The notes under the pieces: model-generated
What the model saw: the letters and a program-made list of their open reading frames with translations, nothing else
Told to the model about the DNA's origin: nothing
Database searches by the model: none
Made by a program: the position numbers and the translations under genes
Part shown: piece after piece, positions 9,579-31,384 of the stretch
How the letters are laid out: each line of letters begins with the position of its first letter
How positions within the stretch are numbered: position 1 is the first letter of the stretch
Source of the DNA: an uncultured Paludibacter sp.
GTDB taxonomy: Bacteria; Bacteroidota; Bacteroidia; Bacteroidales; Paludibacteraceae
DNA: 47,893 nucleotides
Reading direction: 5' to 3'
Assembly (NCBI GenBank): GCA_900498215.1
Contig: LR026962.1
Span: forward strand, 3,041,005-3,088,897

Positions 9579-9610
9579 GGAGTGGTTGTTTGAAATTCTT
9601 TCAGGTAGAA
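9579..9610 (-). repeat. Copy of the tsaB 3' end, first part (split by IS)
   Basis: These 32 bp are identical to 30714-30745 inside tsaB. Read on the minus strand and joined to 11304-11322 with the IS and one target duplication removed, the copy encodes AYFEPFYLKEFQTTTP followed by K-N-K and a stop. The true TsaB ends with the same residues followed by K-K-I-K. This is direct sequence evidence of a duplicated gene end. Confidence 0.93.
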
Positions 9611-9611
9611 A
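9606..9611. repeat. IS target-site duplication, left
   Basis: The sequence tagaaa directly precedes the left inverted repeat and matches 11303-11308. Confidence 0.85.
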
Positions 9612-9628
9612 GGGATATTCGTTAAATA
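9612..9628 (+). repeat. IS left terminal inverted repeat
   Basis: gggatattcgttaaata pairs with the complement of 11286-11302 at 16 of 17 positions. Confidence 0.88.
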
Positions 9629-9630
9629 CA

Positions 9631-9680
9631 ACAAATCAGCAGAACTGAAACAAAAAACAGCCTGCTGATTTGTTTTTTTT
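9631..9680 (+). terminator. Hairpin terminator just inside the left IS end
   Basis: A perfect 12-bp stem (acaaatcagcag, 9631-9642, with 9662-9673) is followed by a run of T. Pointing inward on the plus strand, it would stop transcription entering the IS from the GH125 side. Confidence 0.75.
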
Positions 9681-9804
9681 TGTGGTTTTATCAACATCCT
9701 TTTAGTGATAAAGTTAAAAATAACACTGTTTTCTAATTTTCGGACATAAAGCGTTGGAAGTTCCGGTAAAAAAGAACTTCTATTTTTTTGTCGCTATTAT
9801 GTAT

Positions 9805-11172
9805 TCAGGCTATTTTCTTGTGCCTCGCCGCTTGTACTTTCTCAATCATTTTTACGGCATTGGCAGTATGTATTCCAAAAAATATCCAAAGTATCTCGGT
9901 TTGTTTCGTTCGGGCGTGTACTTTGAGTAAATCGTAGTGTTGTTTTTGAGTTCCAAAACTTCCTTCCATCCGTGTGGCTCTTTCACGACTTAATTCTTTT
10001 CTGAGCATCGTCCTGTCTTTTTCATCCTTAGCGGGTTTTCCCTTGCGTACAAATGAGGTATGAATGTTGTATTTTGTACAGAAACGTCTGTTCGCGTTAT
10101 TGGCATAAATACCGTCTGCTCCTATGGCTTTCACTCGTGTTTTCATCAAGTGTTGATGTAACCGGACGCATTGTTTGAGGCGTATTCCTTCATTGAAGGC
10201 TTTGAAAGAGAGATGTTCGATAAAACAAATCCCGTCTATTTGGATATTGTTTACTTTTGCCCCAAACTCTACGGTTTTGACTTCTTTGCCTCTGACAATG
10301 GGGCGAATATAAGGTTTATCAACACTGACAATTCTATCCGATATGTTTTCGCCCTCAAACATCCTTTTTTGTTGTTCCAATACTTCTTCTATGACAGATA
10401 AACGTTTGCGAAAATCGGTTGAAAGAGATAAACCCTTAGCGTGATTTTTTAATAATGATTTTATTTGGGATAATAATTTCTCCAATAAATGCAATAATCT
10501 GCGTACAAGCATCCGCTTTCTTGATTTCTTCACGTTGTTCTTGCGTTTTTTACTGTAAGAGAGATAAGCCTTTGAAACATCATTAAACTTATTGCGTGGA
10601 AGACGCTGATGAAGTATTGCACAAAAATCAGACAAACGGGTATGAAGCCAACGGACGGATTCCCATAACAGTTTTACATTGGTAGGATAACGTATATAAC
10701 TCTCATAACAAGTAGCATCTGTCATACACACGTGCAGGTTCTTCAAATAAGGTTTCCAATGCGATGCCAATACCTGTTGTGCAGAATCAATATCTAATAA
10801 CGAAGCTATCTCTACTCGAATGTCACTGACAATCTTAAAATTGTTTAGCGGGCGTAAAGGATGGATATATACACCGCAAAACATTTGGTAATGGATGTTG
10901 CCGTTTAAATGTTCTATCAATTGGGAATCGGAAAAACCGGTGTAGGACTTTAACAACATCAGCGCAACTTTCCCTTCCGCTGTAAAATAACTCTGACGAC
11001 CACAGGATTTATCTTTAAGACCGATGCTGCGGCAAAAATCGGTAAAAGGGAAAACTTCGTGAAGTTTGCCTAACTCGCTTTGTGCAAAACTTGAACGGTA
11101 ATTTTGATAAACATCAAACTCTGTAAATCCTAATGTAGGAGAAATCTGAGAAATTTTTTGTACTTTTGACAT
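9805..11172 (-). CDS. DDE transposase of the IS (IS1182/IS5-like)
   Basis: A 455-aa transposase that cuts and joins the IS ends. The N-terminal part (about 15-120) has the DUF772-like pattern YFTAEGKVALMLLKSYTGFS then YQMFCG. The putative catalytic triad is D152 (VCMTDATCYES), D353 (AIGADGIYANNANRRF) and E403 (RATRMEGSFGTQ). A lysine/arginine-rich stretch near 205-245 separates the first two. The reading frame is intact, so the element could still be active. The gene lies between the two inverted repeats, starting 130 bp from the right end. The exact IS family is not certain from sequence alone; length and ends fit IS1182-like elements. Confidence 0.9.
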   Translation of the reverse strand: MSKVQKISQISPTLGFTEFDVYQNYRSSFAQSELGKLHEVFPFTDFCRSIGLKDKSCGRQSYFTAEGKVALMLLKSYTGFSDSQLIEHLNGNIHYQMFCGVYIHPLRPLNNFKIVSDIRVEIASLLDIDSAQQVLASHWKPYLKNLHVCMTDATCYESYIRYPTNVKLLWESVRWLHTRLSDFCAILHQRLPRNKFNDVSKAYLSYSKKRKNNVKKSRKRMLVRRLLHLLEKLLSQIKSLLKNHAKGLSLSTDFRKRLSVIEEVLEQQKRMFEGENISDRIVSVDKPYIRPIVRGKEVKTVEFGAKVNNIQIDGICFIEHLSFKAFNEGIRLKQCVRLHQHLMKTRVKAIGADGIYANNANRRFCTKYNIHTSFVRKGKPAKDEKDRTMLRKELSRERATRMEGSFGTQKQHYDLLKVHARTKQTEILWIFFGIHTANAVKMIEKVQAARHKKIA

Positions 11173-11243
11173 ATCTTTTTGGGGTTATTACCTCCGTTTT
11201 ATGCCACTAACACAAATAGCGGGGGAATAATCAAAGATACGAA

Positions 11244-11286
11244 AAAGCCAACTATCTCACAATGATTTAGTTGGCTTTGTTTTTTT
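11244..11286. terminator. Bidirectional hairpin terminator inside the right IS end
   Basis: A perfect 11-bp stem (aaagccaacta, 11244-11254, with 11268-11278) has a T-run after it on the plus strand and a shorter T-run on the minus strand. It lies between the UxaE-like gene and the transposase and would block read-through into the transposase. Confidence 0.75.
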
Positions 11287-11302
11287 ATTTTACGAATATC
11301 CC
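11286..11302 (-). repeat. IS right terminal inverted repeat
   Basis: The complement reads gggatattcgtaaaata and matches the left end at 16 of 17 positions. Confidence 0.88.
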
Positions 11303-11308
11303 TAGAAA
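11303..11308. repeat. IS target-site duplication, right
   Basis: tagaaa follows the right inverted repeat and matches 9606-9611. Confidence 0.85.
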
Positions 11309-11322
11309 GGTTCAAAATATGC
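11304..11322 (-). repeat. Copy of the tsaB 3' end, second part
   Basis: Together with 9579-9610 this reconstructs a 47-bp segment matching 30714-30760 at 46 positions. The difference is a silent third-base change in a proline codon. The match stops at 11322, six bases from the stop codon of the UxaE-like gene. Confidence 0.9.
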
Positions 11323-11327
11323 TTGAA

Positions 11328-12584
11328 TTAATTAATATCTTGGACAAAAATTTTTTTTATATGACGACGATAAATATTATCTTCCACGCATTTGCCAATT
11401 ACATTTGAGTTTTTTTTAAGCATATTAGTAAATTCTGTGCCTAATTCTGCTGCTACTTTATATGCTACATGAATTAATTGTCGGAAGTCAGGATTATAAT
11501 CAGGGCAATCTTGTTCGTGTTGCAATGCATCCACAAATTTTTTGCTTGTCCATATATTTACTTCTTCTATTGATGGAAGTTTCGAATTATCAATATTAAT
11601 CACATCTGCATAAGGCGCACAAAGTTCTGCACTTCTATTGAAGGAAGTTGCGTAAATTTTTTTAGCTAATTTTAGTCCATCGCCTTCTGCTTTTGCTAGC
11701 CCTATTACTTCTTCAAGCCAAGTTGTTCCGGCGGTTTTAAGGTGTAAACCCTTATCGTGCTTTTTTATGATTTTATTAATTATCGGATAGATAGAAAATT
11801 TATCACTCCCTGAATGAATACTAATTTTAAGTTCTTTAGGTAATCCAAACTCTTTTATGGCAAAATCAATCACCAGAATATGTTCTTCAAATTCTTTTTC
11901 AAAATTTTCTAAATCTCCAATATAATCTACACCTTTGTTGAAACGTCCAGTAAATTTAGGAGCAATGGTTTGTACAGGAACCTCCATATTAGCAAGCATT
12001 TTTAGAATAAACAACATTTCAATAGGAGTTTGAGGTACTTCTACTTCATCCATAGAAATTTCTGTAATGAATTTTTCTTTGCCTTTTTCTTTTTTCAAGA
12101 ATTGATATATTTCTGAGGCGTGTTTTGTCGCGGCTAAGAATTTATATGTAACATTTTCCACTAATTCTTTGGTTACATTTAGTGGTTCACTAATCTCGGG
12201 TACAGAAAGTTTACCGATGTATTTTTCGCAAGAAGCAATGAATGTATCAATATCTTTTTGTTCACTTTTTTTACCTATTAGTGCAGCAATATCTAAAGTG
12301 AAAAAATTTGAAACTTTTATAAAGGGAGCTACCGTATTTAAATTGATGTGATCAGCATCGACAAAATAATTTCCTTTGAAATTCAATTTTTTAACCGCGC
12401 TATCTGCTTCATTACGTGTGTCATCCGGTTTTGAGTGTACGTATGTATGCTCACGGTTGGACTTATTCCAAACGGGACTTACCTTTATTCCTTCATTATT
12501 GGCTCCCATTATGGCTCTCAGTTGCGCTTCTCCTTGATGTGAGAAGCGATCGCCAATACCTATACTATATTTATCTAGTTTCAT
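11328..12584 (-). CDS. UxaE-like tagaturonate epimerase family protein
   Basis: A cytosolic 418-aa protein without a signal peptide. I recognise the UxaE (PF16257) style of sequence: KYSIGIGDRFSHQGEAQLRA, VSPVWNKSNREH, YFVDADHINL, KISIHSGSDKFSIYP and LKTAGTTWLEEVIGLA. Known members interconvert tagaturonate and fructuronate, linking galacturonate and glucuronate breakdown, with a metal site in an isomerase barrel. If correct, its presence suggests that the glycan handled by the adjacent block contains a uronic acid. It is transcribed away from the regulator at 13040 across a 455-bp gap. Its stop lies six bases from the stray tsaB 3' end. Bacteroidota paralogues may act on other hexoses, so the precise substrate is inferred. 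Confidence 0.68.
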   Translation of the reverse strand: MKLDKYSIGIGDRFSHQGEAQLRAIMGANNEGIKVSPVWNKSNREHTYVHSKPDDTRNEADSAVKKLNFKGNYFVDADHINLNTVAPFIKVSNFFTLDIAALIGKKSEQKDIDTFIASCEKYIGKLSVPEISEPLNVTKELVENVTYKFLAATKHASEIYQFLKKEKGKEKFITEISMDEVEVPQTPIEMLFILKMLANMEVPVQTIAPKFTGRFNKGVDYIGDLENFEKEFEEHILVIDFAIKEFGLPKELKISIHSGSDKFSIYPIINKIIKKHDKGLHLKTAGTTWLEEVIGLAKAEGDGLKLAKKIYATSFNRSAELCAPYADVINIDNSKLPSIEEVNIWTSKKFVDALQHEQDCPDYNPDFRQLIHVAYKVAAELGTEFTNMLKKNSNVIGKCVEDNIYRRHIKKIFVQDIN

Positions 12585-12891
12585 AAATAATTGTTTTTAT
12601 TTTTTTATCGGCTCAAGTTTGATACTTTAATTTTAATTTCTAATTTAATTTATAACAACTTGTAGAATTAATAAATATTTATCAGAGTGAATCAATGTTG
12701 GTTTTGAAAAATGAAATTTTTTATACTTATAATCTTATAACTGGTTGATAGTGAGCATATTTCTTGTTTGTTTGATTTTATATGGCGCCTTGATGTTATT
12801 CGTTTTAAGAAAAAGTGATAAAAACCAACTTATTATCGTCTACATACTATCCGGCAAAAATAATATGATAAAATTTTGATTAATTACTTTT

Positions 12892-12900
12892 TTGCGTTTT
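12892..12900 (+). promoter_or_regulatory. Possible operator TTGCGTTTT upstream of the regulator gene
   Basis: The nonamer ttgcgtttt recurs upstream of nagP (14202) and susC (17590), always on the same strand and ahead of a TATTTTTG box. A binding site for the XylR/AraC-type regulator is an inference. Confidence 0.4.
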
Positions 12901-12988
12901 AATTTCTTCAAAAAACGAAAATCCGTTATATGAAGAATATATAAATGTAAACTTTATAAAAAGTGTCAGGACTTTAAAACAAATATAT

Positions 12989-12996
12989 TATTTTTG
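12989..12996 (+). promoter_or_regulatory. Bacteroidota -7 box for the regulator gene
   Basis: TATTTTTG fits TAnnTTTG and lies 43 bp before the start codon. No clear TTTG -33 box was found. Confidence 0.5.
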
Positions 12997-14297: not shown

Positions 14298-15617
14298 GTG
14301 AAAGACACAGAGATTTCAAGAAAAGGTTTTATTTCTTCAATGATTATTCTTACCGGATTGTATTTTATTTTCGGACTTGTTTCGTGGGTAAATGCTATTC
14401 TTATTCCTTATTTTAAATTTACGTGTGAATTGAGCGAAGTACAGTCCTACCTTGTGACTTTTGCTTTTTATATTGCTTATCTTATATTTTCTATTCCTGC
14501 ATCTGTTTTACTTAATAAAATCAGATATAAAAAAGGGCTGACAGTAGGTTTGTGGATTATGTCGGCTGGAGCTTTTCTTTTTGTTCCTGCTGCTTATTTA
14601 AGAAACTTTCCTGTTTTTCTTATAGGTTTATTTTCACTTGGAATAGGATTAGCTATTCTTCAATCAGCGGCAAATCCCTTTGTAACTATAATAGGCAAAA
14701 AAGAAAGCGCCGCAAGTCGTATGAGTTTTGTTGGGTTTTTTAATAAATTGGCAGGTATTCTTTCCAATTTATTATTTGCAGCAGTTGTTATGGGAGCGTC
14801 TGCAAAAAAAATGATGGTAGATATAAAAAATGGTCTTTATGTTGGACTTGCTCGCGAAGAAGCTTTAGATCAATTAATTCGTGGAGTTATTATACCTTAC
14901 TTTATATTAGGCGTTATTCTTTTTTTATTTGGTCTTATTATACGTTATTCTGTTTTACCTGATATTGATACAAAAAAGCAAAATGCTTCATTGGATATAA
15001 ATGCTGAAGGAAAATCTATTTTCCAATATCCCAACTTGATTTTAGGTGTGTTAGCAATGTTTTTTCACGTTGGTTCGCAAATGATTTCATTAGCTACGGT
15101 AATAAATTATGCAGGAACAATGGGATTGGAATTAGAAGGCACTGCCAAAAATTTTCCTTCTTATATTATGTCATTAACAATGCTGGGATATTTATTCGGT
15201 GTATTTTTTATCCCAAAATTAATCTCACAAAGAACAGCTCTGGTCATTTGTACATTATTAAACTTATTACTTTCATTTCTGATAATATTAGCAAATCGTC
15301 AGGTGCATTTTTTTGGGATAGATGCCAATATTTCCCTTTGGTTTTTAGTGCTGATGGGACTTCCAAATGCTCTTATTTATGCAGGAATTTGGCCTCTTGC
15401 TATCAGTGGATTAGGTAAACTAACCAATTTGGGTTCGGCAATGCTGGTAATGGGACTTTGTGGAAGCGCTATTATACCTTTAATATATAGTACTATTTCG
15501 GTAAAAACAGATATGCGTACAGCTTATTGGATATTGGTTCCTTGCTTTGCATATCTTGTGTTTTACGCCGTTTACGGATATAAGATTAATTCTTGGAAAC
15601 CTGTGAAAAAAATATGA
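14298..15617 (+). CDS. nagP: NagP/FucP-family sugar:proton symporter
   Basis: A 439-aa inner-membrane transporter of the major facilitator superfamily, FucP group, with about 12 hydrophobic segments. The family pattern is visible in LYFIFGLVSWVNAILIPYFK, LGIGLAILQSAANPFVTIIG and LVMGLCGSAIIPLIY. The start is the GTG at 14298, which gives a short cytoplasmic lead before the first membrane segment; the next in-frame ATG (14340) would cut into that segment. The gene is 3 bp ahead of nagA, which favours N-acetylglucosamine as substrate, as for known NagP porters. FucP-family members also take fucose, glucose or galactose, so the sugar is inferred from the operon. Confidence 0.85.
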   Translation: MKDTEISRKGFISSMIILTGLYFIFGLVSWVNAILIPYFKFTCELSEVQSYLVTFAFYIAYLIFSIPASVLLNKIRYKKGLTVGLWIMSAGAFLFVPAAYLRNFPVFLIGLFSLGIGLAILQSAANPFVTIIGKKESAASRMSFVGFFNKLAGILSNLLFAAVVMGASAKKMMVDIKNGLYVGLAREEALDQLIRGVIIPYFILGVILFLFGLIIRYSVLPDIDTKKQNASLDINAEGKSIFQYPNLILGVLAMFFHVGSQMISLATVINYAGTMGLELEGTAKNFPSYIMSLTMLGYLFGVFFIPKLISQRTALVICTLLNLLLSFLIILANRQVHFFGIDANISLWFLVLMGLPNALIYAGIWPLAISGLGKLTNLGSAMLVMGLCGSAIIPLIYSTISVKTDMRTAYWILVPCFAYLVFYAVYGYKINSWKPVKKI

Positions 15618-15620: not shown

Positions 15621-16811
15621 ATGAATAAAAGATTAATTATTATAAATGCGAAAGTTATTTTCCCTGATTCTATTAAAGAGGGATTTTGTATTGTTTGTGA
15701 AAATGGCAAAATAACTAATATTGAAACAATAAGCAAGTTACAGTTTAATGATAACGACCAAATTATTGATGCAAAGAAAAAATATCTTTCTCCAGGTTTT
15801 ATAGATATCCATACACATGGCGGTGGAGGATTTGATTTTATGGACGGAACCGTGGAAGCTTATCTGAGAGCGGCAGAAACTCACATAAAATATGGAACAA
15901 CATCTTTACTACCCACAACCCTTACCAGCACTACCGAAGAATTGATGAATACATTTGCGGTATATAAAGAAGCTGTTAAACAAAATAAAAAAGGAGCATC
16001 TTTTCTAGGTTTACATTTGGAAGGACCTTATTTCTCTTACAATCAACGAGGCGCACAGGATCCTAAATATTTGCGAAATCCAAAACCGGAAGAATACAAT
16101 CGAATACTTGAAGCATCTTCGGATATTGTGCGTTGGAGTCTGGCTCCCGAATTGGAAGGCGCTCTTGAATTTGGAGAAATATTACAAAAAAGAAACATTC
16201 TTCCTTCTATTGCTCACAGCGATGCTATTTACGAAGAAGTATTGAAAGCTTACGAAAAAGGATTTACCCACATCACACATCTTTATTCAGGAATGTCCAC
16301 AATAACACGTAAAAATGCGTTTCGATATGCAGGTGTTGTAGAGTCGGCATATTTAATTGATGATATGACTGTGGAAATAATTGCAGATGGAGTACATCTT
16401 CCCAAATCGCTTTTACAGTTTGTATATAAGTTTAAAGGCGCAGATAAAACCGCTCTTTGTACAGACTCCATGAGAGGAGCCGGAATGCCTGACGGAAAAT
16501 CCATTTTAGGAAGCATTAAAAACGGACAAGAAGTTATTATTGAAGACGGCGTGGCAAAATTACCAGACCGCACAGCTTTTGCCGGAAGTGTCGCAACAGC
16601 AGACAGGTTGGTTAGAACAATGGTAATGATAGCTGAAATCCCTCTGGTAGATGCAATTAAGATGATAACCGCTACCCCTGCAAAAATAATGAATATACAT
16701 ACACATAAAGGTTTTATTGAAATTGGAAAAGATGCTGATTTAGTGATATTCGATAAAAATATTAATGTTACACATACAATTATAGAAGGAAATGTTATAT
16801 ACGGAAATTAA
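15621..16811 (+). CDS. nagA: N-acetylglucosamine-6-phosphate deacetylase
   Basis: Removes acetate from GlcNAc-6-phosphate in the cytosol. It is a 396-aa amidohydrolase-fold enzyme of usual length, with the expected landmarks in order: GFIDIHTHGGGGFDFMDG, LHLEGPYFS, IAHSDA (metal His), THLYSGMS, IADGVHLP and CTDSMRGAGMPDG (catalytic Asp). It follows nagP by 3 bp and overlaps nagB by 20 bp, so the three genes are co-translated as one operon. Expression probably depends on the promoter and direct-repeat site in front of nagP. Confidence 0.95.
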   Translation: MNKRLIIINAKVIFPDSIKEGFCIVCENGKITNIETISKLQFNDNDQIIDAKKKYLSPGFIDIHTHGGGGFDFMDGTVEAYLRAAETHIKYGTTSLLPTTLTSTTEELMNTFAVYKEAVKQNKKGASFLGLHLEGPYFSYNQRGAQDPKYLRNPKPEEYNRILEASSDIVRWSLAPELEGALEFGEILQKRNILPSIAHSDAIYEEVLKAYEKGFTHITHLYSGMSTITRKNAFRYAGVVESAYLIDDMTVEIIADGVHLPKSLLQFVYKFKGADKTALCTDSMRGAGMPDGKSILGSIKNGQEVIIEDGVAKLPDRTAFAGSVATADRLVRTMVMIAEIPLVDAIKMITATPAKIMNIHTHKGFIEIGKDADLVIFDKNINVTHTIIEGNVIYGN

Positions 16812-17586
16812 TTCAAACCCAATCGTATTTTTAAAAGACAAAATACAAGTACATATATTTAACTCCCGTGAAGATATGGGAAAAAAAGCTGCTGAAGATA
16901 CTGCCGCTAAAATTAAAGAAATATTGCAAGAAAAAAACGAAGTAAACATGATTTTTGCAGCAGCCCCTTCTCAAAACGAGTTTTTAAAATATTTAGTAAA
17001 TGATTTGTCTATTCCTTGGGAGAAAATAAATGCTTTTCATATGGACGAATACATTGGTTTAAGCGCAAATGCTCCACAGGGATTTGGAAATTTTTTAAAA
17101 GAAAGATTATTTGAAAAAGTTCCATTTAAAAGTGTTCAATACATAAATGGTTTAGTTGAAGATATTCAAGTTGAATGTGATAGATATGAAAAGTTATTGA
17201 TGGATTATCCTGTAGATATTGTTTGTTTAGGTATAGGTGAAAACGGTCATATTGCTTTTAACGATCCTCCTGTGGCAGATTTTAATGATAAAGTACTTGT
17301 CAAAGAGGTAGAATTGGATCCAAGTTGTCGTCAGCAGCAGGTGAATGAAAATTGCTTTACTTCTATTGATTTGGTCCCATTAAAAGCAATTACTTTAACC
17401 ATACCGGCTTTAATGAAAGCAAAATATATGTTTTGTGTTGTTCCTTCGGCAAATAAAGCAAAAGCTGTGTATGAAACTTTACACCATAAAATTAGCGAAA
17501 AATACCCTGCTACTATTTTGAGAACCAAAGAAGATATGAAGCTTTATTTAGATAAAGACAGCGCTAGTTTATTAATTTATCAATAA
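16792..17586 (+). CDS. nagB: Glucosamine-6-phosphate deaminase
   Basis: Converts glucosamine-6-phosphate to fructose-6-phosphate and ammonia. The 264-aa sequence shows HMDEYIGL (the Asp that deprotonates C2) and LGIGENGHIAFNDPP (ring-opening His and neighbours). The position that is Asp141 in the E. coli enzyme is Asn here, as in other NagB proteins such as that of B. subtilis, so this is not a sign of inactivity. The ATG at 16792 lies inside the end of nagA. Later in-frame ATGs would remove the beginning of the fold, so the overlap is accepted and suggests translational coupling. Confidence 0.93.
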   Translation: MLYTEINSNPIVFLKDKIQVHIFNSREDMGKKAAEDTAAKIKEILQEKNEVNMIFAAAPSQNEFLKYLVNDLSIPWEKINAFHMDEYIGLSANAPQGFGNFLKERLFEKVPFKSVQYINGLVEDIQVECDRYEKLLMDYPVDIVCLGIGENGHIAFNDPPVADFNDKVLVKEVELDPSCRQQQVNENCFTSIDLVPLKAITLTIPALMKAKYMFCVVPSANKAKAVYETLHHKISEKYPATILRTKEDMKLYLDKDSASLLIYQ

Positions 17587-17719: not shown

Positions 17720-20700
17720 ATGAAAGTGTTAAAAACATTCTACAAGTATGGTTTACTTTCTTTGCTGTTGGTTTATGCAGTAAATGCAAATGCGAATACA
17801 TTCAATTTAGAAGTAAATCAAGAGGGAATTGAAATCTCTGGTACTGTGAAAGATGAAGCCGGAGAACCAATTCTGGGCGTTAAAGTTATGGAAGTTGGTG
17901 CTATGAATGGTGTAATAACCAATGTAAATGGTAAATTTACCATTTATGTAAAGAACAAAGGTGCAAAACTTCAATTCTCTTCCATAGGATATGAAACCTA
18001 TGAAATTACGGTGGATGATTCCCACATCAATTTACAAATTACATTACAGGAAAAAGTAAGTAAATTAGACGAATTGGTAGTGATAGGATATGGAACGATG
18101 AAAAAACGAGATGTGTCAGGTTCCATTTCATCAATAAGTAATGATGCTATAGAAAACACGCCGATTAAAAACATTATGTCTGCAATTCAAGGACGTGCTT
18201 CCGGCGTACAAGTTGTTTCTAATTCAGGTGCTCCTGGTGACGGAATTTCTGTTACCGTACGAGGTCAGTCTACGTTAAATTCAGGAAATGATCCACTATA
18301 TGTAATAGATGGTGTTCCGGTTGAAACAAGTTCATTATCTAAACTTAACGGGTGGGAATCTCATGGGCTGAATCCATTAGCGGATATAAATCCGCAGGAT
18401 ATTGAATCTATCGAGATTTTAAAAGATGGTTCATCAACTGCAATCTATGGTTCGAGAGCTGCAAATGGCGTTATTCTCATTACAACCAAAAGAGGAAAAG
18501 AAGGAAAACCCCAAATAAATTTAAATATTTATACCGGAGTAAGCAAACTTCCAAGAAAACTAAGTGTGCTAAATGCAACGCAATGGAGAGACATAATTAT
18601 TGATACATATAAAAATTTGGATGCGTATAATGATGCAACAACCCCAACAGAGCCACACTGGACTGCAATAGATTCATTGAATCCTATGAATAGCGGAGAT
18701 GTTGATTGGCAGGATGTTATGTACAGAACTGCAACCCAAAAACAAATTAGTCTTTCAGTTATAGGGGGAACACAAGGTGCAAAATATTCGTTAAACACAT
18801 CGTATTTAGATCAAGATGGTATCCTATTGAATTCAAATTATAAAAGAATAACATCCAGATTAAATGTAGACTTTAAAGTTACTGATAAAATAAATACCGG
18901 TTATAGTGTTTCATTTACCAATGGCAGAAATAATAGAATAAATGCCGGTGGAACAGGAAATAACAGTTTGGTACAATCTATCTTAGTACGACCTCCGGTA
19001 TATTCACTTACTTATCCTGATGGCACTCCCATTTATTACTTTAATGGAAAACGTAATCCTGTTGGGCTTGCTGAAGAGTGTACGCACTTAAATACTACAA
19101 ATAGAATTATTGGAAATCAATACATTGAATTTGAGCTTCTTAAGGATTTAAGATTCAAAACAAGTATTAGTTTGGATTTCATAAATATGAAAGAAGATGA
19201 GTTTTATCCAACAACTGTTGATTATAGAGCAGGATATAATACAGGAGCAGTAAGTTCTACAAACAATTTGACATGGATAAATGAAAACTATTTAACTTAC
19301 ACTAAATCGTTTGATAAAAAGCATAATTTCTCGCTTCTTGGAGGATTCAGTCAGCAAGCCTGGAAATATGAAAGAACCGGTTTGAGCGGAATGTATTTTG
19401 CAAGTGATAATATTACAACACTAAACGGCGCCGGAACTATATCAGGGACAGATGTAAATATTGCAACGGAACACAGTTTAATGTCTGTTTTTGGACGTTT
19501 AGGTTATGATTATTTGGGTAAATATTTGTTTCAAGCAAATATGAGAGCAGACGGTTCTTCACGATTTGGCAAAGAAAATAGATGGGGTTATTTCCCATCA
19601 GCATCATTAGCATGGCGTTTTTCAGATGAAAAATTCTTGAAAAATATTAAACAGATTGAAGATGCTAAACTTCGTTTAAGTGTAGGACAAATAGGAAATG
19701 AATCCATAGGGAATTATATTTCACAAGGAGAATTCACTTTAGGAGCAAATTATTTAGATTATTCAGGAGCTGCTCCTACCGCAATGCCTAATTATAGCCT
19801 GTCTTGGGAAACCACCACTCAATATGATGCAGGTTTAGACATTTCATTATTTAAAGGAAGAATATATTTGACTGCTGACGTGTATTTGAAAAGAACAACA
19901 GATCTTCTTTTTAATGTGCCGATTCCGGAAACAACAGGATTTAGCTCAATAAGTCAAAATATTGGAGAAATTGAAAATAAAGGATTAGAATTCGCATTAA
20001 CAACCCATAATTTTACGGGTGTATTCAAATGGACTTCTAATCTAAACATCGGAATGAATAGAAACAAGGTTGTAAGTTTACCTGAAAATATTCTTACAAA
20101 TGGATACCTTCAAAATGGAACCTACCAGATTCTAAAAGTGGGCGAACCTATAGGAACTTTTTACGGATGGAAATTCTTAGGAGTTTATTCACGCGATGAA
20201 GATAATGTGAACAAAGTAAGATACGGTTCGGCAAATGGAAAATTATTCAGAGGAGGAGATCCTATTTGGGATGATTTCAAAGAAGATCAAGTAATCGATA
20301 ATCAGGATAAGCAAATTATTGGTAATGCACAGCCGAAATTTACCGGAGGATTTAACAATGACTTCTCATATAAAAACTTCTCGTTAAACGCCTTTTTCCA
20401 ATTTTCTTATGGAAATGATATTTACAGTAACTTGAATATGATGCGTAACTGGGTATTTGCTTACAATAACGTATCTACAGATGCTTTGCATAGATGGCGA
20501 GAACCAGGAGATGTTACAGATATCCCGAGACCTATCAGAAACGATCCTTTAGGAAACGAATATAATAGAGTGTCTGATAGATGGATTGAGGATGGCTCAT
20601 ATATTAGATTAAAAAATGTGACCCTTGCTTATGATTTGCCTCAAAATATAGTAAAGAAAATTTTCCTTAGTGGATTACAGTTTTACGTAACAGGTGAAAA

Positions 20701-22838: not shown

Positions 22839-22839
22839 A

Positions 22840-24777
22840 ATGAATAAATACAGATTAGTTTTCTCAAATAAGATTGTGTTGATGATTTTGGGGTATGCTT
22901 TAATTATTAAAGTATATCCCTTTTCAAGTAACCCGACGTACATTCCAAGCAATAATCAAATTTTAGAAAAAACAGGAAACTTTCCTTTTTTCAATATTAT
23001 AAAACAATATAATGTCGGCGATTACATTCCAAAAGATCAAGGAGGAAAATTTATTCAATCTGAATTATTCGATAGTGAAAATGATGAGTATATCGTTAAA
23101 CAAATTCAAAAAGGCGCTTTAGAAAATATTTACGGGAATCCTATTAATTGGATAAAATATGAAGAAACAGAATTAGAAAAAAGCGTCTGGTTAAGCCGTT
23201 TGTATTTTTTGCCTAGCTTTGGAAGAATGTATTATCTAACAAATGATAGTGCGTATATTTCTTATGCAATGAATTTTCTTCGGAAATGGTACAATGAAAA
23301 TTTAGAATTGTTTAAGCAAAAAAGAACAAAATATAATTGGACAGATATGCAAATAGCATGGCGATGTATACATCTTAGCTGGTTTTATTTTTTAGGAGAA
23401 AAAGCGCTTTCAGAAACTGATAAAGAGTTTATCATTGATATATTAGATGAACATTCAAAAATACTTCTTGAACATTTTGGGAAACAACCGTTGAACGAGT
23501 TCAATCATCAATCTCACGGAGCATTGGCAATGCTTTATGTGGGTGCGCTGTTTCCACAGATGGAACAATCAAAATCGCTTATAGACACTTCACTAAAAAT
23601 TCTTGAACATCACATTCAATATGCTTTTTATAAAGACGGCGGAAATGTAGAGCAAATGTTTGGGTATTATCCTTTTGAGGCACATATTTTTAGAGATGCA
23701 TATCTGCTTTGTAAGTATAATAATGTTGAGAAACCAAACGGAATTGACGAGTTGCTGGTGAAAATGCAGAGTTTTATTTCTGCCGTAAAACAACCCAATG
23801 AAACAATGCCTCCTGTGAATGATTCGTATGAAATGCCTACAGAAGTTATACTTGAAACGCTCGGAAAAATAAACGACACGCTTTCTCAAAATAATTTATG
23901 CAAAAGTAAATTTTTTAATGAAACCCAAATTGGTGTAATTAAAAAAAGAATAGGAAATAATTCCTGGTATATTTTGGCAAATCCGGCAAAAACAATTGGC
24001 GCACACATGCACGCAGGCAGATTAGCTTTCAATATTTGGTATAACAACACGCCTATTATTAGAGATGGTGGATGTTGCAATTACGATAATCCTTTATTAT
24101 ATCAATGGTATAGAACTTCAACGGCACACAACACGGTTTTAATAGACGGAAAAACCGATGAAGCAACATCAACCGATTTGTTGTGGGCACCCAAAAGGGA
24201 AACACAGAACAAAATAACTGATTTTATAGAGGATAAAGATTTTACCTTTTTAAGAATGCACTCTCCGGCTGACGAAAAAACAAATTCTTCCGTGGATTGG
24301 TACAGGTCAATCGTTTTGATTGACAGCGCCTGTCTTATTTTACATGATTTTTTCAAAACCGAGAGCCGGCACAGTTACGAATTATTATTCCATTTTAGTG
24401 ATTCTGTCAATATCTTAAAGGGAAATAATACTCTCTCGATAGATAAAAATTCTACAAAAATTAATATTTTTCCTGTCGACAAAAATATAATCGAGAATCT
24501 TTCAATAAAAGAGGGATTTATAAATGTGGATGGAAAAAATATTAAAGCTCCTTATGCTCAATATACAATAAACGCAAATGGAGATTTGCACTCATTCATT
24601 ATTTTCACCCCGAGAAATAAAAATGAATTTAAAATAAAAACACTGGCAAATTCAGATGGAGCGGGTTTAAAGATAAAGATAAACAATAAAAACCGCACGT
24701 TATTATTTCCAAATCCCGACTGTAAATCATTAAATATTTTCAAAAAGAACACTCAAAATCAATTTGAGATATTTTAA
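22840..24777 (+). CDS. Heparinase II/III-family protein (candidate polysaccharide lyase)
   Basis: A 645-aa protein with an N-terminal signal or anchor (IVLMILGYALIIKVYPFSS). About residues 60-340 form the alpha/alpha toroid of the heparinase II/III family, with NWTDMQIAWRCIHLSWFY and NEFNHQSHGALAML (N222, H223, H226). The C-terminal half is the beta-sandwich domain PF07940, recognised by GAHMHAGRLAFNIWYNN (H389, H391), PIIRDGGCCNYDN and YRTSTAHNTVLIDGK. Relatives cleave uronic-acid-containing glycans (heparin, heparan, alginate, related polymers) by beta-elimination. The common H-A-H-A-D motif is H-M-H-A-G here, so the exact lyase family cannot be stated. It suggests that the target polymer contains uronate next to hexosamine. 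Confidence 0.8.
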   Translation: MNKYRLVFSNKIVLMILGYALIIKVYPFSSNPTYIPSNNQILEKTGNFPFFNIIKQYNVGDYIPKDQGGKFIQSELFDSENDEYIVKQIQKGALENIYGNPINWIKYEETELEKSVWLSRLYFLPSFGRMYYLTNDSAYISYAMNFLRKWYNENLELFKQKRTKYNWTDMQIAWRCIHLSWFYFLGEKALSETDKEFIIDILDEHSKILLEHFGKQPLNEFNHQSHGALAMLYVGALFPQMEQSKSLIDTSLKILEHHIQYAFYKDGGNVEQMFGYYPFEAHIFRDAYLLCKYNNVEKPNGIDELLVKMQSFISAVKQPNETMPPVNDSYEMPTEVILETLGKINDTLSQNNLCKSKFFNETQIGVIKKRIGNNSWYILANPAKTIGAHMHAGRLAFNIWYNNTPIIRDGGCCNYDNPLLYQWYRTSTAHNTVLIDGKTDEATSTDLLWAPKRETQNKITDFIEDKDFTFLRMHSPADEKTNSSVDWYRSIVLIDSACLILHDFFKTESRHSYELLFHFSDSVNILKGNNTLSIDKNSTKINIFPVDKNIIENLSIKEGFINVDGKNIKAPYAQYTINANGDLHSFIIFTPRNKNEFKIKTLANSDGAGLKIKINNKNRTLLFPNPDCKSLNIFKKNTQNQFEIF

Positions 24778-24791: not shown

Positions 24792-26345
24792 ATGATAAAA
24801 AAACTCCAAATATTCATTACGTTGCTTCTTCTTATTTGCTATCCGCAAATAAAAGCAAATTCTCAAAACAGCCTCACAAATGATTTTGACATAAAAGGAT
24901 TTCATTTAGATCTTCGTATTCAGGTTATGACGCCCCAAGCGTTACACAATTTTGCCAAAGAATTATCAGAATTTGGAATTAATACGCTGGTAATGGAATG
25001 GGAAGCGTCTTATCCTTATGAAAAACATGCGGTTATCTCCAATAAATATGCGTACACGAGGGAAGAAGTAAAATCATTTATTGAATATTGTAATTCATTG
25101 GGCATTGATGTAATTCCGTTACAACAATGTTTTGGACACGTAGAATATATTTTACGAAACGAACGATACAGTGCTTTAAAAGAAGATCGGAAAGATATTT
25201 CACAGATTTGCCCACTCGAAACCAAAGGCGACAGTCTGCTTTTTTCTGATTTATTTAAAGATATGGCATTGTTACATACTTCCAAATATTTTCATATAGG
25301 TGGCGATGAAACTTATCTGTTGGGGCATTGTGAAAAATGTTCATTAAAAGCCTCACAGGAAGGAAAATCGAAATTATTTGTGGATTATATGAAGATGATT
25401 TGTAAGATTCTTATCGGTATGGGAAAAACACCTGTAATGTGGGCTGATATTTTGTTGAAATATCCTGAAGCTGCTAATGAACTCCCCAAAGAAACCATTT
25501 TTATTGATTGGAATTACGGATGGAAAAACAATTATTTTGGCGATATTGGTGCATTACAAAAGCAAGGACTTGTGTTTTGGGGTTCTCCTGCCATTCGTAG
25601 TCATCCTGATAATTGGTATATAACGGAATGGGAGAAGCATTTTAATAATCAACGTGATTTTATTCCTTATGCCCGTAAAGCAGGTTATAAAGGAATGGTA
25701 ATGACTTCTTGGTCAACTTCGGGATTATACGGTTTTACTTGGGACGTCAATTATGAAGTGTTGGATATGAAACAAATCCGAAATACATATCCTTTGTCTG
25801 GGTTTCGTGTTTTGGTAGCTTCTTACGCACAAGCGTTAAAGCAAAAAGAACCGTTAGATCCCAAAGCATTTGTAACGAAATATGCCGCTGAACGATTCGG
25901 ATTTACGCAGTCTGAAAGCGAGAAATTTTGGGAAACGTTTACTATTCCGCAGGAATTAATAGGGGATGGAAAACCTGTAAAAAGTCAATCTATAGCCGAT
26001 TTACAAAAAGAGACGCATCGGATAAAAGAAATTTTATACCGTTTGTCACCAAAAAGAAATAAAAAAGAATTTGAACATTTCAAATTAATGATTGATTTAA
26101 GAGAATTTTATTTGAAGTTTAAAGAACTCAAAGCTATTTATAATTCGGAAAACTTTTCGCGGAATGAATCCTTTGTTTTGATTTCTCAATTGGAAGATTT
26201 AATAAAGCAATCTAAAATGTTGGACAAAAGATTTTATAAGCTGCAAAAAAGTTTTCTCCCCAGTAAAGAAATTGAAGAACAAAATGAATTCCGCAGGATG
26301 GATTTAGTGAATATGTATAATCGAGTTGTAAGTATGAGTAAATAA
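24792..26345 (+). CDS. GH20 family beta-N-acetylhexosaminidase, hexosaminidase-D-like
   Basis: A 517-aa exported enzyme (signal peptide IFITLLLLICYPQIKA). The TIM barrel starts early (KGFHLDLRIQVM) without the extra N-terminal GH20b domain, as in hexosaminidase D-type members. The GH20 catalytic pair is D172-E173 in YFHIGGDETYLLG. Other barrel markers are GHVEYILRNERY, PVMWADILL and MTSWSTSGLYG. A helical C-terminal region (about 390-517) follows. GH20 enzymes release terminal GlcNAc or GalNAc by substrate-assisted catalysis. It is 14 bp after the heparinase-fold gene and 11 bp before a second, different GH20, so the two probably act on different linkages or ends. Confidence 0.88.
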   Translation: MIKKLQIFITLLLLICYPQIKANSQNSLTNDFDIKGFHLDLRIQVMTPQALHNFAKELSEFGINTLVMEWEASYPYEKHAVISNKYAYTREEVKSFIEYCNSLGIDVIPLQQCFGHVEYILRNERYSALKEDRKDISQICPLETKGDSLLFSDLFKDMALLHTSKYFHIGGDETYLLGHCEKCSLKASQEGKSKLFVDYMKMICKILIGMGKTPVMWADILLKYPEAANELPKETIFIDWNYGWKNNYFGDIGALQKQGLVFWGSPAIRSHPDNWYITEWEKHFNNQRDFIPYARKAGYKGMVMTSWSTSGLYGFTWDVNYEVLDMKQIRNTYPLSGFRVLVASYAQALKQKEPLDPKAFVTKYAAERFGFTQSESEKFWETFTIPQELIGDGKPVKSQSIADLQKETHRIKEILYRLSPKRNKKEFEHFKLMIDLREFYLKFKELKAIYNSENFSRNESFVLISQLEDLIKQSKMLDKRFYKLQKSFLPSKEIEEQNEFRRMDLVNMYNRVVSMSK

Positions 26346-26356: not shown

Positions 26357-29300
26357 ATGAAACCAATTAATTATATTTTACTGTTGTCGCTAATGCTTTT
26401 TATAAGCGGTTCTGCGTATTCAGTAACTGACGTGAAAATAATTCCTCAACCTAATAATATTGAATATTACAACGAACTTCACACATTAAAAAGCGGAGTT
26501 AGTGTTATTGCCGATAATGATCTTCAAAATGAAGCTCGTTTTTTAGCAGATATTCTCACAAAAGGATTTGGCAAAGAATCAAAAATAAAAACGAAAGGAA
26601 ATGGTATTTTTTTAATTTTAGATGAAGGATTAAATTCTCAAACAGGCAGTGAAGGATATGTTTTTTCTTCCGTCGGAAAAAATATTACTATCAAAGCAGC
26701 AACGCCAACCGGTATTTTTTATGGAATTCAAACACTTAAACAATTGTTTCCTGTTGAGTTTGAGCAAAGAATAAAAGAACGCAGCGTAAAAATTCCGAGT
26801 GTAAAAATATCAGACTATCCCAGATTTCACTGGCGGGCATTTATGCTGGATGAATCCAGACATTTCAAAGGTATGGACGAAGTAAAACGATTGTTGGATC
26901 AGATGGCATTGCTAAAAATGAATATTTTTCATTGGCATCTAACAGATGATCAAGGATGGAGAATTGAAATCAAAAAATATCCTCTGCTGACACAAATCGG
27001 TTCGAAAAGAAAAGATACACAAACAAGTAGAGGAAGTGAAAATAGAACAGGAAAACCTCACGAAGGATTTTATACTCAAGAACAAATAAAAGACATAATT
27101 TCGTATGCTGAAAAAAGGCACATCACAATTGTCCCTGAAATAGAAATGCCCGGTCACGCTATGGCTGCCATTGCTTCTTATCCTTGGATTGGTTCACTTG
27201 GAACAACTACGGAAGTTCCGGTTGTTTTCAGTAGAACGGAAGACTCATTTAATATCTCAGACCCAAAAGTAATTGATTTTTTGAAGGACATACTAAATGA
27301 AGTAATAAATTTATTTCCGGGCAAAGTTATTCATATCGGCGGAGACGAAGTAGTTTTTAAAACTTGGGAAGAATCGCAAAAGGTTCAGGATTATATGAAA
27401 CAGCTAAACATAAAATCACCCATCGAATTGCAGATTTACTTCACCAATCTAATGTCAAATTACATCGATAGTAAGGGTAAACGTATGATGGGATGGAATG
27501 AAATTCTGGGAGATGATATTCACGGCGAAAGAAATGATGCAAATACTAATAAAGACCAAAAATTAGCGAAGTCTGCAATTGTTCATTTCTGGAAAGGCAA
27601 CCTTGATTTAATAAACAAAGCTGTACAAAACGATTATGATGTTGTTAATTCAAATCATTGGGATACATATTTGGATTATACTTATGAAAGATTGCCTCTG
27701 TCAAAATCGTATGCATTTAATCCAATTCCTGAAGGTTTAGCCCCGAAATATCAATCTCATATTCTTGGTTTAGGCACTCAAATGTGGAGTGAATGGATTC
27801 CAACGGTAGAAAGTATGGAAAAACAAGTCTTCCCGCGTTTTGCCGCTTACGCTGAAGTTGGATGGACTGAATTAAAAAACAAGGATTATAGCAGATTTTT
27901 AAATTCACTCGAATTACTTAAAAAAAGATGGGACATTGAACACATTTATTACACCGATTCTGCTACAAAAAAAACAAGTGATGCAAGAACAAAGTATTTC
28001 CCAAAACAAGAAATTCCTGTATCTCAACTGCCTTCCAAAGACAAACTCTGGATTTTTATAATGGCAGGACAATCGAATATGGCAGGACGTGGATGGGTTT
28101 CTCCTTATGATACGGTTCCTCGACCAAATATTATTACTATTAACAGTAAAAACGAATGGGTTTTGGCAAAAGAACCGTTGCATTTTTATCAACCAAATTT
28201 AACGGGATTAGACTGCGGTCTTTCTTTTGCAAAATATTTAGCTGACAGCATAAACGATGATATTACAATTGCAATTCTGCCGACAGCCGTAGGAGGAAGT
28301 TCCATCAGTTACTGGTTAAACGATTCGGTGTTTAACGGAGTGCATCTTCAAAGTAATTTGTTTGAAAAAATAAAATTAGCAAAGCAATATGGAGTACTTA
28401 AAGGCATTCTTTGGCACCAGGGAGAAAGTGATGCTTCTCCCAAGAAAATTCCTGCTTATAAAAAAAATCTCGAAAAATTATTCAGTTTGATACGTCAACG
28501 GGCTGGAAATGAAAATCTTCCCATAATCGCAGGTGAACTTGGGAGTTATTCTAAAAAGGAAAAAGACAAGAAAAATTGGGCGGCGATTAATAAAATTATC
28601 CATAAAGTTGCTGATAAGGATGAAAATACTTATTTGGTGAAAACCGGTGATTTAACACCGAACGATGATTTTATTCATTTTGATGCTCCATCGCAACGAA
28701 AACTTGGAGAAAGATACGCCAAAGCTTATTTGCAAATTGAAAGAAAAGTAAGTGCACAACAACAGACAGCAGGAACAAATAATGTTTATAAAGAAACCGA
28801 AACAAAGAAAAATGAACGCATAATTTCTTTCTCCGGTTATAAATGGGCTGTAGCATCATCCAAAGGTAAAAAGTATGGTGGTCCGTTTTATTATTCAGAC
28901 TCTAATAATAACGTATGGATTGATAAAAACGGAAAACTTCATCTAAAAATCACGCACAGGAATGATAAATGGTATTGTGCAAAAGTAACTCTTTTGAAAC
29001 CGGTGACGTATGGGAAATATATTTTTCAAATTGACAGCCGCATTGATAATTTTGATAAAAATGTAGTAGGTGGATTATTTATATATAAAAATGACGTTCA
29101 GGAAATCGATATTGAGTTCTCAAAATGGGGAATAGATGAAAATATGAACTCTCAGTTTGTTATTCAACCAGGCGATAAAAATGAAAATAAAAAAAGATAC
29201 GATATAAATCTTACAGAAAATAAATCAACACATTGGTTTGATTGGCAGCCAAATTCTATCAAATTTATGAGCTATCAAGGACATTCCCATAAACTGTCCA

Positions 29301-29458
29301 ATTCGGGCAATATTTTTCAACAATGGGAATATTCCGGAGAAGACATACCGTTGGACTCAGACGAACAAGTGAAAATCAATCTTTGGATGTTTCGAGGAAT
29401 GCCGCCATCTGATAATAAAGAAACTGAAATGATTGTTTCAGCATTCAAAATAGAATAA
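26357..29458 (+). CDS. Three-domain enzyme: GH20 hexosaminidase + SGNH/SASA esterase + GH16-like domain
   Basis: A single open frame of 1033 aa with a signal peptide (ILLLSLMLFISGSAYS). Residues about 25-145 are a GH20b domain, and 150-545 the GH20 barrel (FHWRAFMLDESRHFKGMDE, HWHLTDDQGWRIEIKKYP, catalytic D330-E331 in HIGGDEVVF). About 570-790 are a sialate-O-acetylesterase/CE6-type hydrolase: S573 in AGQSNMAGRG, GILWHQGESD, and D771-x-x-H774. About 820-1033 are a GH16-like beta-jelly-roll with the EIDIE signature (E916, D918, E920) followed by FSKWG. The first domain should release beta-linked GlcNAc/GalNAc and the second remove acetyl groups; the third may cut or only bind glycan. There is no frameshift or internal start between domains, so the fusion looks genuine. 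Confidence 0.9.
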   Translation: MKPINYILLLSLMLFISGSAYSVTDVKIIPQPNNIEYYNELHTLKSGVSVIADNDLQNEARFLADILTKGFGKESKIKTKGNGIFLILDEGLNSQTGSEGYVFSSVGKNITIKAATPTGIFYGIQTLKQLFPVEFEQRIKERSVKIPSVKISDYPRFHWRAFMLDESRHFKGMDEVKRLLDQMALLKMNIFHWHLTDDQGWRIEIKKYPLLTQIGSKRKDTQTSRGSENRTGKPHEGFYTQEQIKDIISYAEKRHITIVPEIEMPGHAMAAIASYPWIGSLGTTTEVPVVFSRTEDSFNISDPKVIDFLKDILNEVINLFPGKVIHIGGDEVVFKTWEESQKVQDYMKQLNIKSPIELQIYFTNLMSNYIDSKGKRMMGWNEILGDDIHGERNDANTNKDQKLAKSAIVHFWKGNLDLINKAVQNDYDVVNSNHWDTYLDYTYERLPLSKSYAFNPIPEGLAPKYQSHILGLGTQMWSEWIPTVESMEKQVFPRFAAYAEVGWTELKNKDYSRFLNSLELLKKRWDIEHIYYTDSATKKTSDARTKYFPKQEIPVSQLPSKDKLWIFIMAGQSNMAGRGWVSPYDTVPRPNIITINSKNEWVLAKEPLHFYQPNLTGLDCGLSFAKYLADSINDDITIAILPTAVGGSSISYWLNDSVFNGVHLQSNLFEKIKLAKQYGVLKGILWHQGESDASPKKIPAYKKNLEKLFSLIRQRAGNENLPIIAGELGSYSKKEKDKKNWAAINKIIHKVADKDENTYLVKTGDLTPNDDFIHFDAPSQRKLGERYAKAYLQIERKVSAQQQTAGTNNVYKETETKKNERIISFSGYKWAVASSKGKKYGGPFYYSDSNNNVWIDKNGKLHLKITHRNDKWYCAKVTLLKPVTYGKYIFQIDSRIDNFDKNVVGGLFIYKNDVQEIDIEFSKWGIDENMNSQFVIQPGDKNENKKRYDINLTENKSTHWFDWQPNSIKFMSYQGHSHKLSNSGNIFQQWEYSGEDIPLDSDEQVKINLWMFRGMPPSDNKETEMIVSAFKIE

Positions 29459-29483
29459 ATACAGCTTAAAAAATAATATTGAG

Positions 29484-30608
29484 ATGCAAAAACAAGCTCA
29501 ACAAAAAACATCACGATTAGCATCGTTGGATGCCCTCCGCGGATTCGACATGCTTTGGATCACAGGAGGACAAAAAATTGTATTTGCCTTGGCGACAATT
29601 AAAGGTTTGCCTATTTTCAACTGGTTGAACCGGCAAATGCATCATGTGGAATGGAACGGTTTTGCTTTTTACGATATGATTTTTCCGTTATTTCTTTTTC
29701 TTGCAGGAGTTTCAATGCCTTATTCCTTTTCGAACAGGCTGGCAAAAGGAGAAACAAAAACAACTATTTACAAACACGCTTTCAAACGAATGTTTTTATT
29801 GATAATTTTCGGGATGATTTACAATGGGGTGCTTCATTCCGATTTCGAAAACATGCGTTTTGCTAGTGTACTCGGACGAATTGGTGTGGCTTGGTTTTTT
29901 GCGGCAATCATTTATTTGAATACTTCCTTACGTGGACAAATTATATGGTTTTGGGGAATTCTTGTTGGATATTGTTTATTGATGCTTTTTGTTCCTGTTC
30001 CCGGTTTCGGAGCGGGAGTCTTAACACCTGAAGGAAATTTATCGGGATATATTGACAGACTTCTATTACCTGGAAAACTTTATATAAATAACATAATGGA
30101 AGCCGAAGGCATTCTCAGCACACTACCCGCAATAGGTACAGCGTTGTTGGGAGTTTTTGCAGGTCATTTTTTAAGAGTAAATGATGAAAAAATCAGCCGA
30201 GTAAAGAAAAGTTTATGGTTGATTGTTGCCGGAGTTTTTTCGTTAGCTTTAGGGTTAATTTGGAATATCTTTTTTCCTATTAATAAAATATTATGGACGA
30301 GTTCTTTCGTTCTTTTTGCTGGAGGTTTAAGTTTAATTCTATTGGGGATATTCTATTTGATAATAGATGTTTGGGGATTTAAAAAGTGGTCTTTCTTTTT
30401 TGTTGTTATAGGATTAAACTCCATTACTATTTACCTTGTACAGTATAAAATTATAGATTTCAATAAAGTTAGAGATTTTTTGTTCGGAACGCTAATAAAT
30501 CTTACTCCCAACAGTATTCAACCTCTTGTTAGTGCAATTATTTATGTACTGCTTGTGTGGATGTTTCTTTATTTTCTTTATAAAAATAAGATATTTCTAA
30601 AAGTGTAA
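29484..30608 (+). CDS. NagX-like membrane acyltransferase (DUF5009, HGSNAT relative)
   Basis: A 374-aa inner-membrane protein with about ten hydrophobic segments. The N-terminal RLASLDALRGFDMLWITGG, then GFAFYDMIFPLFLFLAGVSM and FASVLGRIGVAWFFAAI, are characteristic of the DUF5009/heparan-alpha-glucosaminide N-acetyltransferase group. In animals the relative moves acetyl from cytosolic acetyl-CoA to glucosamine on heparan fragments; bacterial members called NagX are found in GlcNAc utilisation loci. Here it is the last gene of the susC operon, 25 bp after the three-domain enzyme. A role in acetylating free or terminal glucosamine in the periplasm is inferred. A strong terminator follows. Confidence 0.82.
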   Translation: MQKQAQQKTSRLASLDALRGFDMLWITGGQKIVFALATIKGLPIFNWLNRQMHHVEWNGFAFYDMIFPLFLFLAGVSMPYSFSNRLAKGETKTTIYKHAFKRMFLLIIFGMIYNGVLHSDFENMRFASVLGRIGVAWFFAAIIYLNTSLRGQIIWFWGILVGYCLLMLFVPVPGFGAGVLTPEGNLSGYIDRLLLPGKLYINNIMEAEGILSTLPAIGTALLGVFAGHFLRVNDEKISRVKKSLWLIVAGVFSLALGLIWNIFFPINKILWTSSFVLFAGGLSLILLGIFYLIIDVWGFKKWSFFFVVIGLNSITIYLVQYKIIDFNKVRDFLFGTLINLTPNSIQPLVSAIIYVLLVWMFLYFLYKNKIFLKV

Positions 30609-30658
30609 TAAAACTATTGGATTCAGTTTTTTCATAGATAAATATTTCCAAGAGAACG

Positions 30659-30700
30659 AAACGCTGTAAGAATTTGATTTACAGCGTTTTGTTTTTTTTA
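30659..30700 (+). terminator. Terminator at the end of the susC operon
   Basis: An 11-bp stem (aaacgctgtaa, 30659-30669, with 30679-30689) is followed by a T-run that overlaps the end of tsaB, which converges from the other side. Confidence 0.85.
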
Positions 30701-31384
30701 TTTTATCTTTTTCGGAGTGGTTGTTTGAAATTCTTTCAGGTAGAAGGGTTCAAAATATGCGACATCTACAAAATTATTCTCAGAAAAATGCTTTTCAGCC
30801 AATGAAATCATATTTTCAGCCAACGGTTCTATATTGTTTATAAACTTTGCATTAGGGTGGGTGAGAACTGTTTTGCATTTTTCAGCGCCGTTACCAAAGA
30901 AATAAACCGTGTTATTTTGCAGCAAATCTTGAAATGAACTTTCAGTAATAATTTCAGCGGAAATATCTTGTTTCATTTCTAAATCTAAGTTGTAAAAAGC
31001 GGTATAAACTTCCATTCTGCGTGCATCAATCATTGGACAAAGCAAAGCATTTTTTTCAATTTGATTTCTTTTGATAACTTCCTTACATAATATTTCGAGT
31101 GTGCTTACTGCAATTAGTGGAATTTCATATCCATAGCAAAGTCCTTTGGCGGTGGAAACTCCAATGCGCAAGCCGGTATAAGAACCGGGACCGGAACTTA
31201 CGGCAACAGCATCTAATTTCAGATTTTGTTCTTTTGCTTTTTCTAATGCTTGCTCTATAAATGGGCTTAATAATGCAGCATGATTTTGTCCTTTATCATC
31301 AGCAATGGAGAAAATACATTTTCCGTTTACGCTTAAAGCCACAGAACAAACATTGGTTGAAGTTTCGATATGAAGAAGAGTCAT
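30698..31384 (-). CDS. tsaB: tRNA threonylcarbamoyladenosine biosynthesis protein TsaB
   Basis: Partner of TsaD and TsaE in making t6A at position 37 of tRNAs that read ANN codons. The 228-aa sequence has the N-terminal LLHIETSTNVCSVALSVNGK, the ASKHA-fold motif VSSGPGSYTGLRIGVSTAKG and LCPMIDARRMEVYTAFYN, all typical of TsaB (YeaZ). It is a universal housekeeping gene. Its 3' end converges on the susC operon terminator. The last codons (30714-30760) are duplicated beside the UxaE-like gene about 19 kb away. The gene itself is complete, and its C-terminal tail may have been supplied by an incoming element. Confidence 0.95.
   Translation of the reverse strand: MTLLHIETSTNVCSVALSVNGKCIFSIADDKGQNHAALLSPFIEQALEKAKEQNLKLDAVAVSSGPGSYTGLRIGVSTAKGLCYGYEIPLIAVSTLEILCKEVIKRNQIEKNALLCPMIDARRMEVYTAFYNLDLEMKQDISAEIITESSFQDLLQNNTVYFFGNGAEKCKTVLTHPNAKFINNIEPLAENMISLAEKHFSENNFVDVAYFEPFYLKEFQTTTPKKIK
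30714..30760 (-). repeat. tsaB 3'-end copy of the 47-bp direct repeat flanking the hexosamine block
   Basis: Matches 9579-9610 joined to 11304-11322 at 46 of 47 positions and in the same orientation. It encodes AYFEPFYLKEFQTTT of TsaB. Together the copies bracket 11323-30713. Confidence 0.92.

Follow-up and report, generated by a model that had tools for sequence, protein, structure and literature searches.

Here, we describe a stretch of 47,893 nucleotides (the window) from the genome of an uncultured Paludibacter species, in which the 3′ end of the gene tsaB occurs twice, on the two sides of a block of about 19 kb. The bracketed block consists of uxaE on the minus strand followed by a plus-strand polysaccharide utilization locus (PUL) of the N-acetylhexosamine type. 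The window covers positions 3,041,005–3,088,897 of a single-contig genome of 3,156,633 bases, and feature coordinates are given in whole-window numbering.

The duplicated tsaB tail

The segment 30714–30760, at the 3′ end of tsaB, recurs in the same orientation on the far side of the block, where it is split by an insertion sequence (IS). The features concerned are as follows.

9579–9610, minus strand: stray tsaB tail, part 1; 32 bp, identical to 30714–30745
9611–11303, minus strand: IS of 1,693 bp with a DDE/DUF772 transposase at 9805–11172; ends AGGGATATTCGT / ACGAATATCCCT
11308–11322, minus strand: stray tsaB tail, part 2, beyond the IS; 14 of 15 bp identical to 30746–30760
30698–31384, minus strand: intact tsaB; TIGR03725, 170.2 bits (cut-off 69.3)
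30714–30760, minus strand: tsaB 3′-end copy of the 47-bp repeat; sequence and alignment

After setting aside the IS and one copy of the AGAA duplication that flanks it, the left copy reads GGAGTGGTTGTTTGAAATTCTTTCAGGTAGAA followed by AGGTTCAAAATATGC, and 46 of its 47 positions are identical to the copy in tsaB. The initial annotation had reported this repeat, with the same identity, and sequence and alignment bear it out; its first segment, 9579–9610, stands, and its second, given as 11304–11322, becomes 11308–11322 when the AGAA duplication is counted once. The stray copy translates to FYLKEFQTTTPKNK and a stop, and tsaB to FYLKEFQTTTPKKIK and a stop, in agreement with the KNK and KKIK endings described earlier. 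Beyond the 47 bp, both tails carry PK residues and a stop, in frame in each case.

A search of the whole genome with a 401-bp query returned tsaB, the stray copy and two short terminator-like matches, and no further copy of the tail. Within 127.6 kb around the site (1,466 N included), the next best ungapped match to the 47-mer has 30 of 47 positions, and the repeat is the longest widely spaced direct repeat, the runner-up being 24 bp. Since these second-best matches are far weaker and the genome holds no other tail copy, the repeat is not a product of chance. When the 47 bp are compared with the tsaB genes of 17 relatives, between 32 and 41 positions match; the closer agreement of the two tails thus indicates that both originate from a single species or one very near it. 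Counted by hand, 3 of 16 or 4 of 17 positions differ past the core and 1 of 47 within it (Fisher P = 0.047 or 0.015), but the core was delimited after the fact, which makes these P values flattering and the test a weak one. A greater divergence past the core would be as expected of two alleles. Either of the two tails may be the original.

The stray copy is a genuine tsaB tail ending in a stop of its own, so an insertion or rearrangement happened within tsaB. There is good support for such an event in the 3′ end of the gene, one that left a stray tail behind while tsaB stayed intact.

The IS is flanked by the 4-bp AGAA target duplication (9607–9610 and 11304–11307), and its ends match those of other copies in the genome. 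Among the four copies for which both ends were seen, the 4-bp duplication is perfect in three and agrees at three of four bases in the last. Over about 1.47 kb, two other copies show 100% identity, from which it follows that the IS has moved recently. A stretch at 9447–9509, between the GH125 gene and the stray tail, aligns with the first 67 bp of the IS at 78% identity (score 55, against at most 36 in 200 shuffles); it is either the remnant of an earlier IS end or a terminator that the two have in common.

The stray tail could conceivably be an artefact of read joining at a repeat, given that a multi-copy IS lies within it. We regard this as very improbable: the genome is a single contig, the left tail differs by one base, has an ending of its own and is flanked by unique sequence, and the IS within it carries a separate target duplication.

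Genes of the block and their relatives

The remaining features of the block and its left-hand neighbour are listed below.

7902–9416, plus strand: GH125, last gene of the left-hand PUL (family scan)
11328–12584, minus strand: uxaE-like tagaturonate epimerase, the only copy found in the genome
13040–14197, plus strand: regulator with periplasmic-binding-like and AraC-type domains (family scan)
14298–15617, plus strand: MFS sugar transporter, NagP-like (below the curated NCBIfam cut-off)
15621–16811, plus strand: nagA (TIGR00221, above cut-off)
16792–17586, plus strand: nagB-like, glucosamine-6-phosphate deaminase family (below the curated NCBIfam cut-off)
17720–20833, plus strand: SusC-like TonB-dependent receptor (family scan)
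20848–22227, plus strand: SusD-like protein (family scan)
22257–22838, plus strand: fasciclin-domain protein (family scan)
22840–24777, plus strand: heparinase II/III-type lyase (family scan)
24792–26345, plus strand: GH20-type protein (family scan)
26357–29458, plus strand: fusion of GH20 and SASA esterase with an extra C-terminal part (family scan)
29484–30608, plus strand: NagX-like glucosamine N-acetyltransferase (below the curated NCBIfam cut-off)
30661–30687, no strand assigned: terminator-like stem ACGCTGTAA...TTACAGCGT (sequence match)

Adjacent SusC and SusD genes, carbohydrate-active enzymes and a regulator identify the block as a SusC/SusD-type PUL. Family searches confirmed the regulator, transporter, nagA/nagB and SusC/D genes named in the initial annotation and added uxaE, the heparinase II/III-type lyase, the two GH20 proteins and the NagX-like protein. 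Judging from these gene families, the target glycan would contain hexosamine and perhaps uronate. The terminator-like stem resembles two other places in the genome (L003 and L004) and one in a congener (G005:C54:80552-80593).

To the left of the bracket are GH76, GH127, aldose-epimerase, GH31 and GH125 genes, and in the 40 kb before the window there is a pair of SusC- and SusD-like genes, with 27.7% and 23.5% identity to the block's own, together with further large plus-strand genes. Genes for tRNA-Tyr and tRNA-Gly are located just left of this left-hand PUL region (L058 19312–19538). Such genes commonly serve as integration sites; insertion of the left PUL at a tRNA gene was considered and rejected, as 12-mers of the tRNA 3′ ends recur nowhere in the surrounding stretch.

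At an E limit of 1e-60, SusD relatives were found in 3 of 150 genomes, namely the genome itself, a member of the same family (G107, 88% identity) and G090 (35%). In G107, the genes from the regulator to SusD lie at one contig end, beyond an aspS-like gene and an IS66-like fragment (named by eye), and those from a lyase fragment to NagX lie at the end of a second contig, next to an ispG-like gene; these two contigs presumably join. A third contig of G107, which lacks the PUL, carries tsaB, and a fourth carries uxaE, near uxaC. Direct repeats between the sequences on either side of the G107 PUL do not exceed 14 bp. The SusD, SusC and regulator proteins of the block share 88%, 85% and 87% of their amino acids with the G107 counterparts, and the other seven proteins 54 to 77%. 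The C-terminal extra of about 230 residues on the GH20–SASA fusion is absent from the G107 relative (798 residues). In the genome under study, the single uxaE (11328–12584; L136) lies about 104 kb away from uxaC, apart from the hexuronate genes next to which uxaE is found in G107 and in the congener G001.

The lyase was found in its own genome only, which was 1 of 300 genomes of the family, 1 of 393 of the order and 1 of 395 of the phylum (E limits 1e-60, 1e-40 and 1e-25, respectively); these searches understate its spread, since they missed or excluded a contig-end fragment in G107, of the same family, with 52.6% identity over 171 residues. Plasmid records gave two lyase matches (best identity 24.6%) and 51 SusD matches, all under 60% identity, the best-ranked at 33.7%.

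Integration, recombination or rearrangement at tsaB

Integrative elements insert at gene 3′ ends and rebuild them, and a direct repeat of the gene end on both sides of a block, with the gene itself intact, is a criterion by which they are recognized; this arrangement is found here. An element might thus have used the tsaB 3′ end as its attachment site and then lost its integrase or used one acting in trans. We consider this rather unlikely. The geometry is as expected, with a direct repeat of the 3′ end, an intact gene and a displaced tail with its stop, and the genome contains eight matches to the tyrosine recombinase family PF00589. However, the nearest of the eight lies about 365 kb away from the window (the search did not extend to serine recombinases). 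A Pfam scan of the 13 open reading frames (ORFs) of 180 residues or more in the bracket (shorter ORFs were not scanned) found no recombinase, relaxase, transfer or mobilization family except the IS transposase. A palindromic attachment core was also considered and rejected (hairpin z-score −1.73, with 9 of 200 shuffles equally good).

An attachment site would also be expected to recur, and the initial annotation had suggested looking in relatives for different cargo between tsaB-tail repeats. None of 300 genomes of the family has two exact sites coding for EPFYLKEF (one site in 169, none in 131), a pattern that misses the stray copy itself because the IS splits it. The tsaB tail was not found in viral and phage collections, nor its exact 32-mer in viral contigs. 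The sole viral-contig match (L092) was in a gene that, by eye, is not tsaB, and a contig scan with a TsaB query was uninformative, returning one distant locus only. In the open literature searched, neither tsaB (yeaZ) as an integration or genomic-island site nor a PUL bounded by direct repeats with an integrase is described; the one literature match for tsaB at attB sites was in a reference list, and its TsaB is a type VI antitoxin. Furthermore, the related PUL of G107 is not at tsaB and has no flanking repeats of 15 bp or more. The lack of a PF00589 match nearby, the lack of double tails and the position of the G107 PUL together weigh against an element aimed at tsaB and fit recombination between two alleles. 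Of the integrative-element reading put forward in the initial annotation, the insertion or rearrangement in the tsaB 3′ end is therefore retained, and the site-specific cassette is not. A more far-reaching version, in which the tsaB 3′ end would serve as an integration site for PUL cassettes through a recombinase in trans, with loci stacking and the gene rebuilt each time, seems to us distinctly unlikely.

The flank of tsaB was compared in seven congeners, with one genome per species. The two genes upstream of tsaB are kept in all seven, and the genes on the 3′ side differ; a conserved core flank beside a variable accessory side, as in integrase-free hotspots, is thus found, between species only. 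No ORF similar to the block genes or to GH125 occurs within the 1.9–14.8 kb available 3′ of tsaB in any of the seven and, as both the PUL and GH125 are missing there, an empty site was not seen. Relatives of GH125 exist in three of the seven congeners; in G005 and G001 the adjoining genes are unrelated, and in G002 (GH125 identity 55%) the relative adjoins a gene with 28% identity to one left of the window. Four congeners (G001, G004, G005 and G008) have a nifJ-like gene and a gene of about 392 residues (named by eye) near tsaB. In the window's genome, the same nifJ-like gene and its neighbour are at 567–572 kb, which shows that the tsaB 3′ flank has been rearranged.

This rearrangement is in keeping with a purely internal event, in which the tail was copied at a break or by a template switch in the tsaB 3′ end and became attached to the resident uxaE and PUL with no outside DNA. 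The distance between the single uxaE and uxaC, its near neighbour in G107 and G001, and a block composition that is not clearly foreign speak for the same explanation. Against it, a copy made from a single tail should not diverge more past the core, unless by drift, and the test of that divergence is weak. On balance, we judge an internal event unlikely.

The explanation that we favour, at about even odds of being correct, is that the 47-bp repeat is the scar of a past insertion in the tsaB 3′ end by homology-assisted recombination at a variable flank. Incoming DNA that carried uxaE and the PUL and had a nearly identical tsaB tail at its end would have recombined with the resident tsaB. One side would have been joined by homology; on the other, an illegitimate joint would have formed within the old coding sequence, about 47 bp (plus the last codons) from its end. 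The old tail would then have been stranded beside GH125, with the incoming tail rebuilding tsaB, and the IS would have arrived later. We infer in which direction the event ran, that the donor belonged to the same species or a very close one, and how the recombination took place; the mirror image may apply instead, with the left-hand PUL arriving as the newcomer and bringing a tsaB tail of its own. Precedents exist for integrase-free hotspots where the flanking core genes recombine (PMC5635113) and for the insertion of small linear DNA that has homology at one end only (PMC3240628).

Several points weigh against the recombination scar. In the latter source, homology-facilitated illegitimate recombination concerns small linear DNA and is called inefficient (PMC3240628); 19 kb would be long for it, and the illegitimate joint is itself presumed. 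Neither the donor arrangement nor a GH125–tsaB arrangement was found among the genomes compared. A foreign origin of the block is also not evident. Its guanine-plus-cytosine (GC) content is 0.332, against 0.357–0.369 in the flanks, but the DNA just right of it is equally low (0.319–0.341) and GC at third codon positions overlaps. Identity to G107 at fourfold-degenerate sites is 527 of 1,350 (39.0%) in the block and 281 of 812 (34.6%) in a comparison set of eight genes that includes uxaE, although it lies inside the bracket (P = 0.043). The difference is slight and is carried mainly by SusD (52.3% of 151 sites) and SusC (42.5% of 348). Because fourfold sites are near saturation in both sets, a recent transfer from the lineage of G107 is not shown; an old exchange, or vertical descent with losses, is possible.

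Comparison with known systems

PULs move between Bacteroidota, and the entry of those without an obvious mobile element is seldom visible. The preserved tail scar would represent one marked joint of such an entry, testable in strains of the species. If the tsaB 3′ end were a true attachment site, tsaB would be a new landing site for sugar-use loci, which the present evidence does not show.

The locus resembles integrative elements that insert at gene 3′ ends in its direct repeat of a gene 3′ end, intact gene and displaced tail. It differs from them in that the bracket contains neither an integrase nor a transfer gene, that the arrangement does not recur at tsaB among the genomes searched and that the related PUL lies elsewhere. 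With the PULs exchanged among Bacteroidota (PMC13188876), it shares a SusC/D locus and a patchy distribution, whereas recent transfer is not shown for this PUL. Like the hotspots of Oliveira et al. (2017; PMC5635113), it has accessory genes beside a conserved core gene, no integrase and a flank that varies between species; in contrast to them, a duplicated end of the core gene remains here as a scar.

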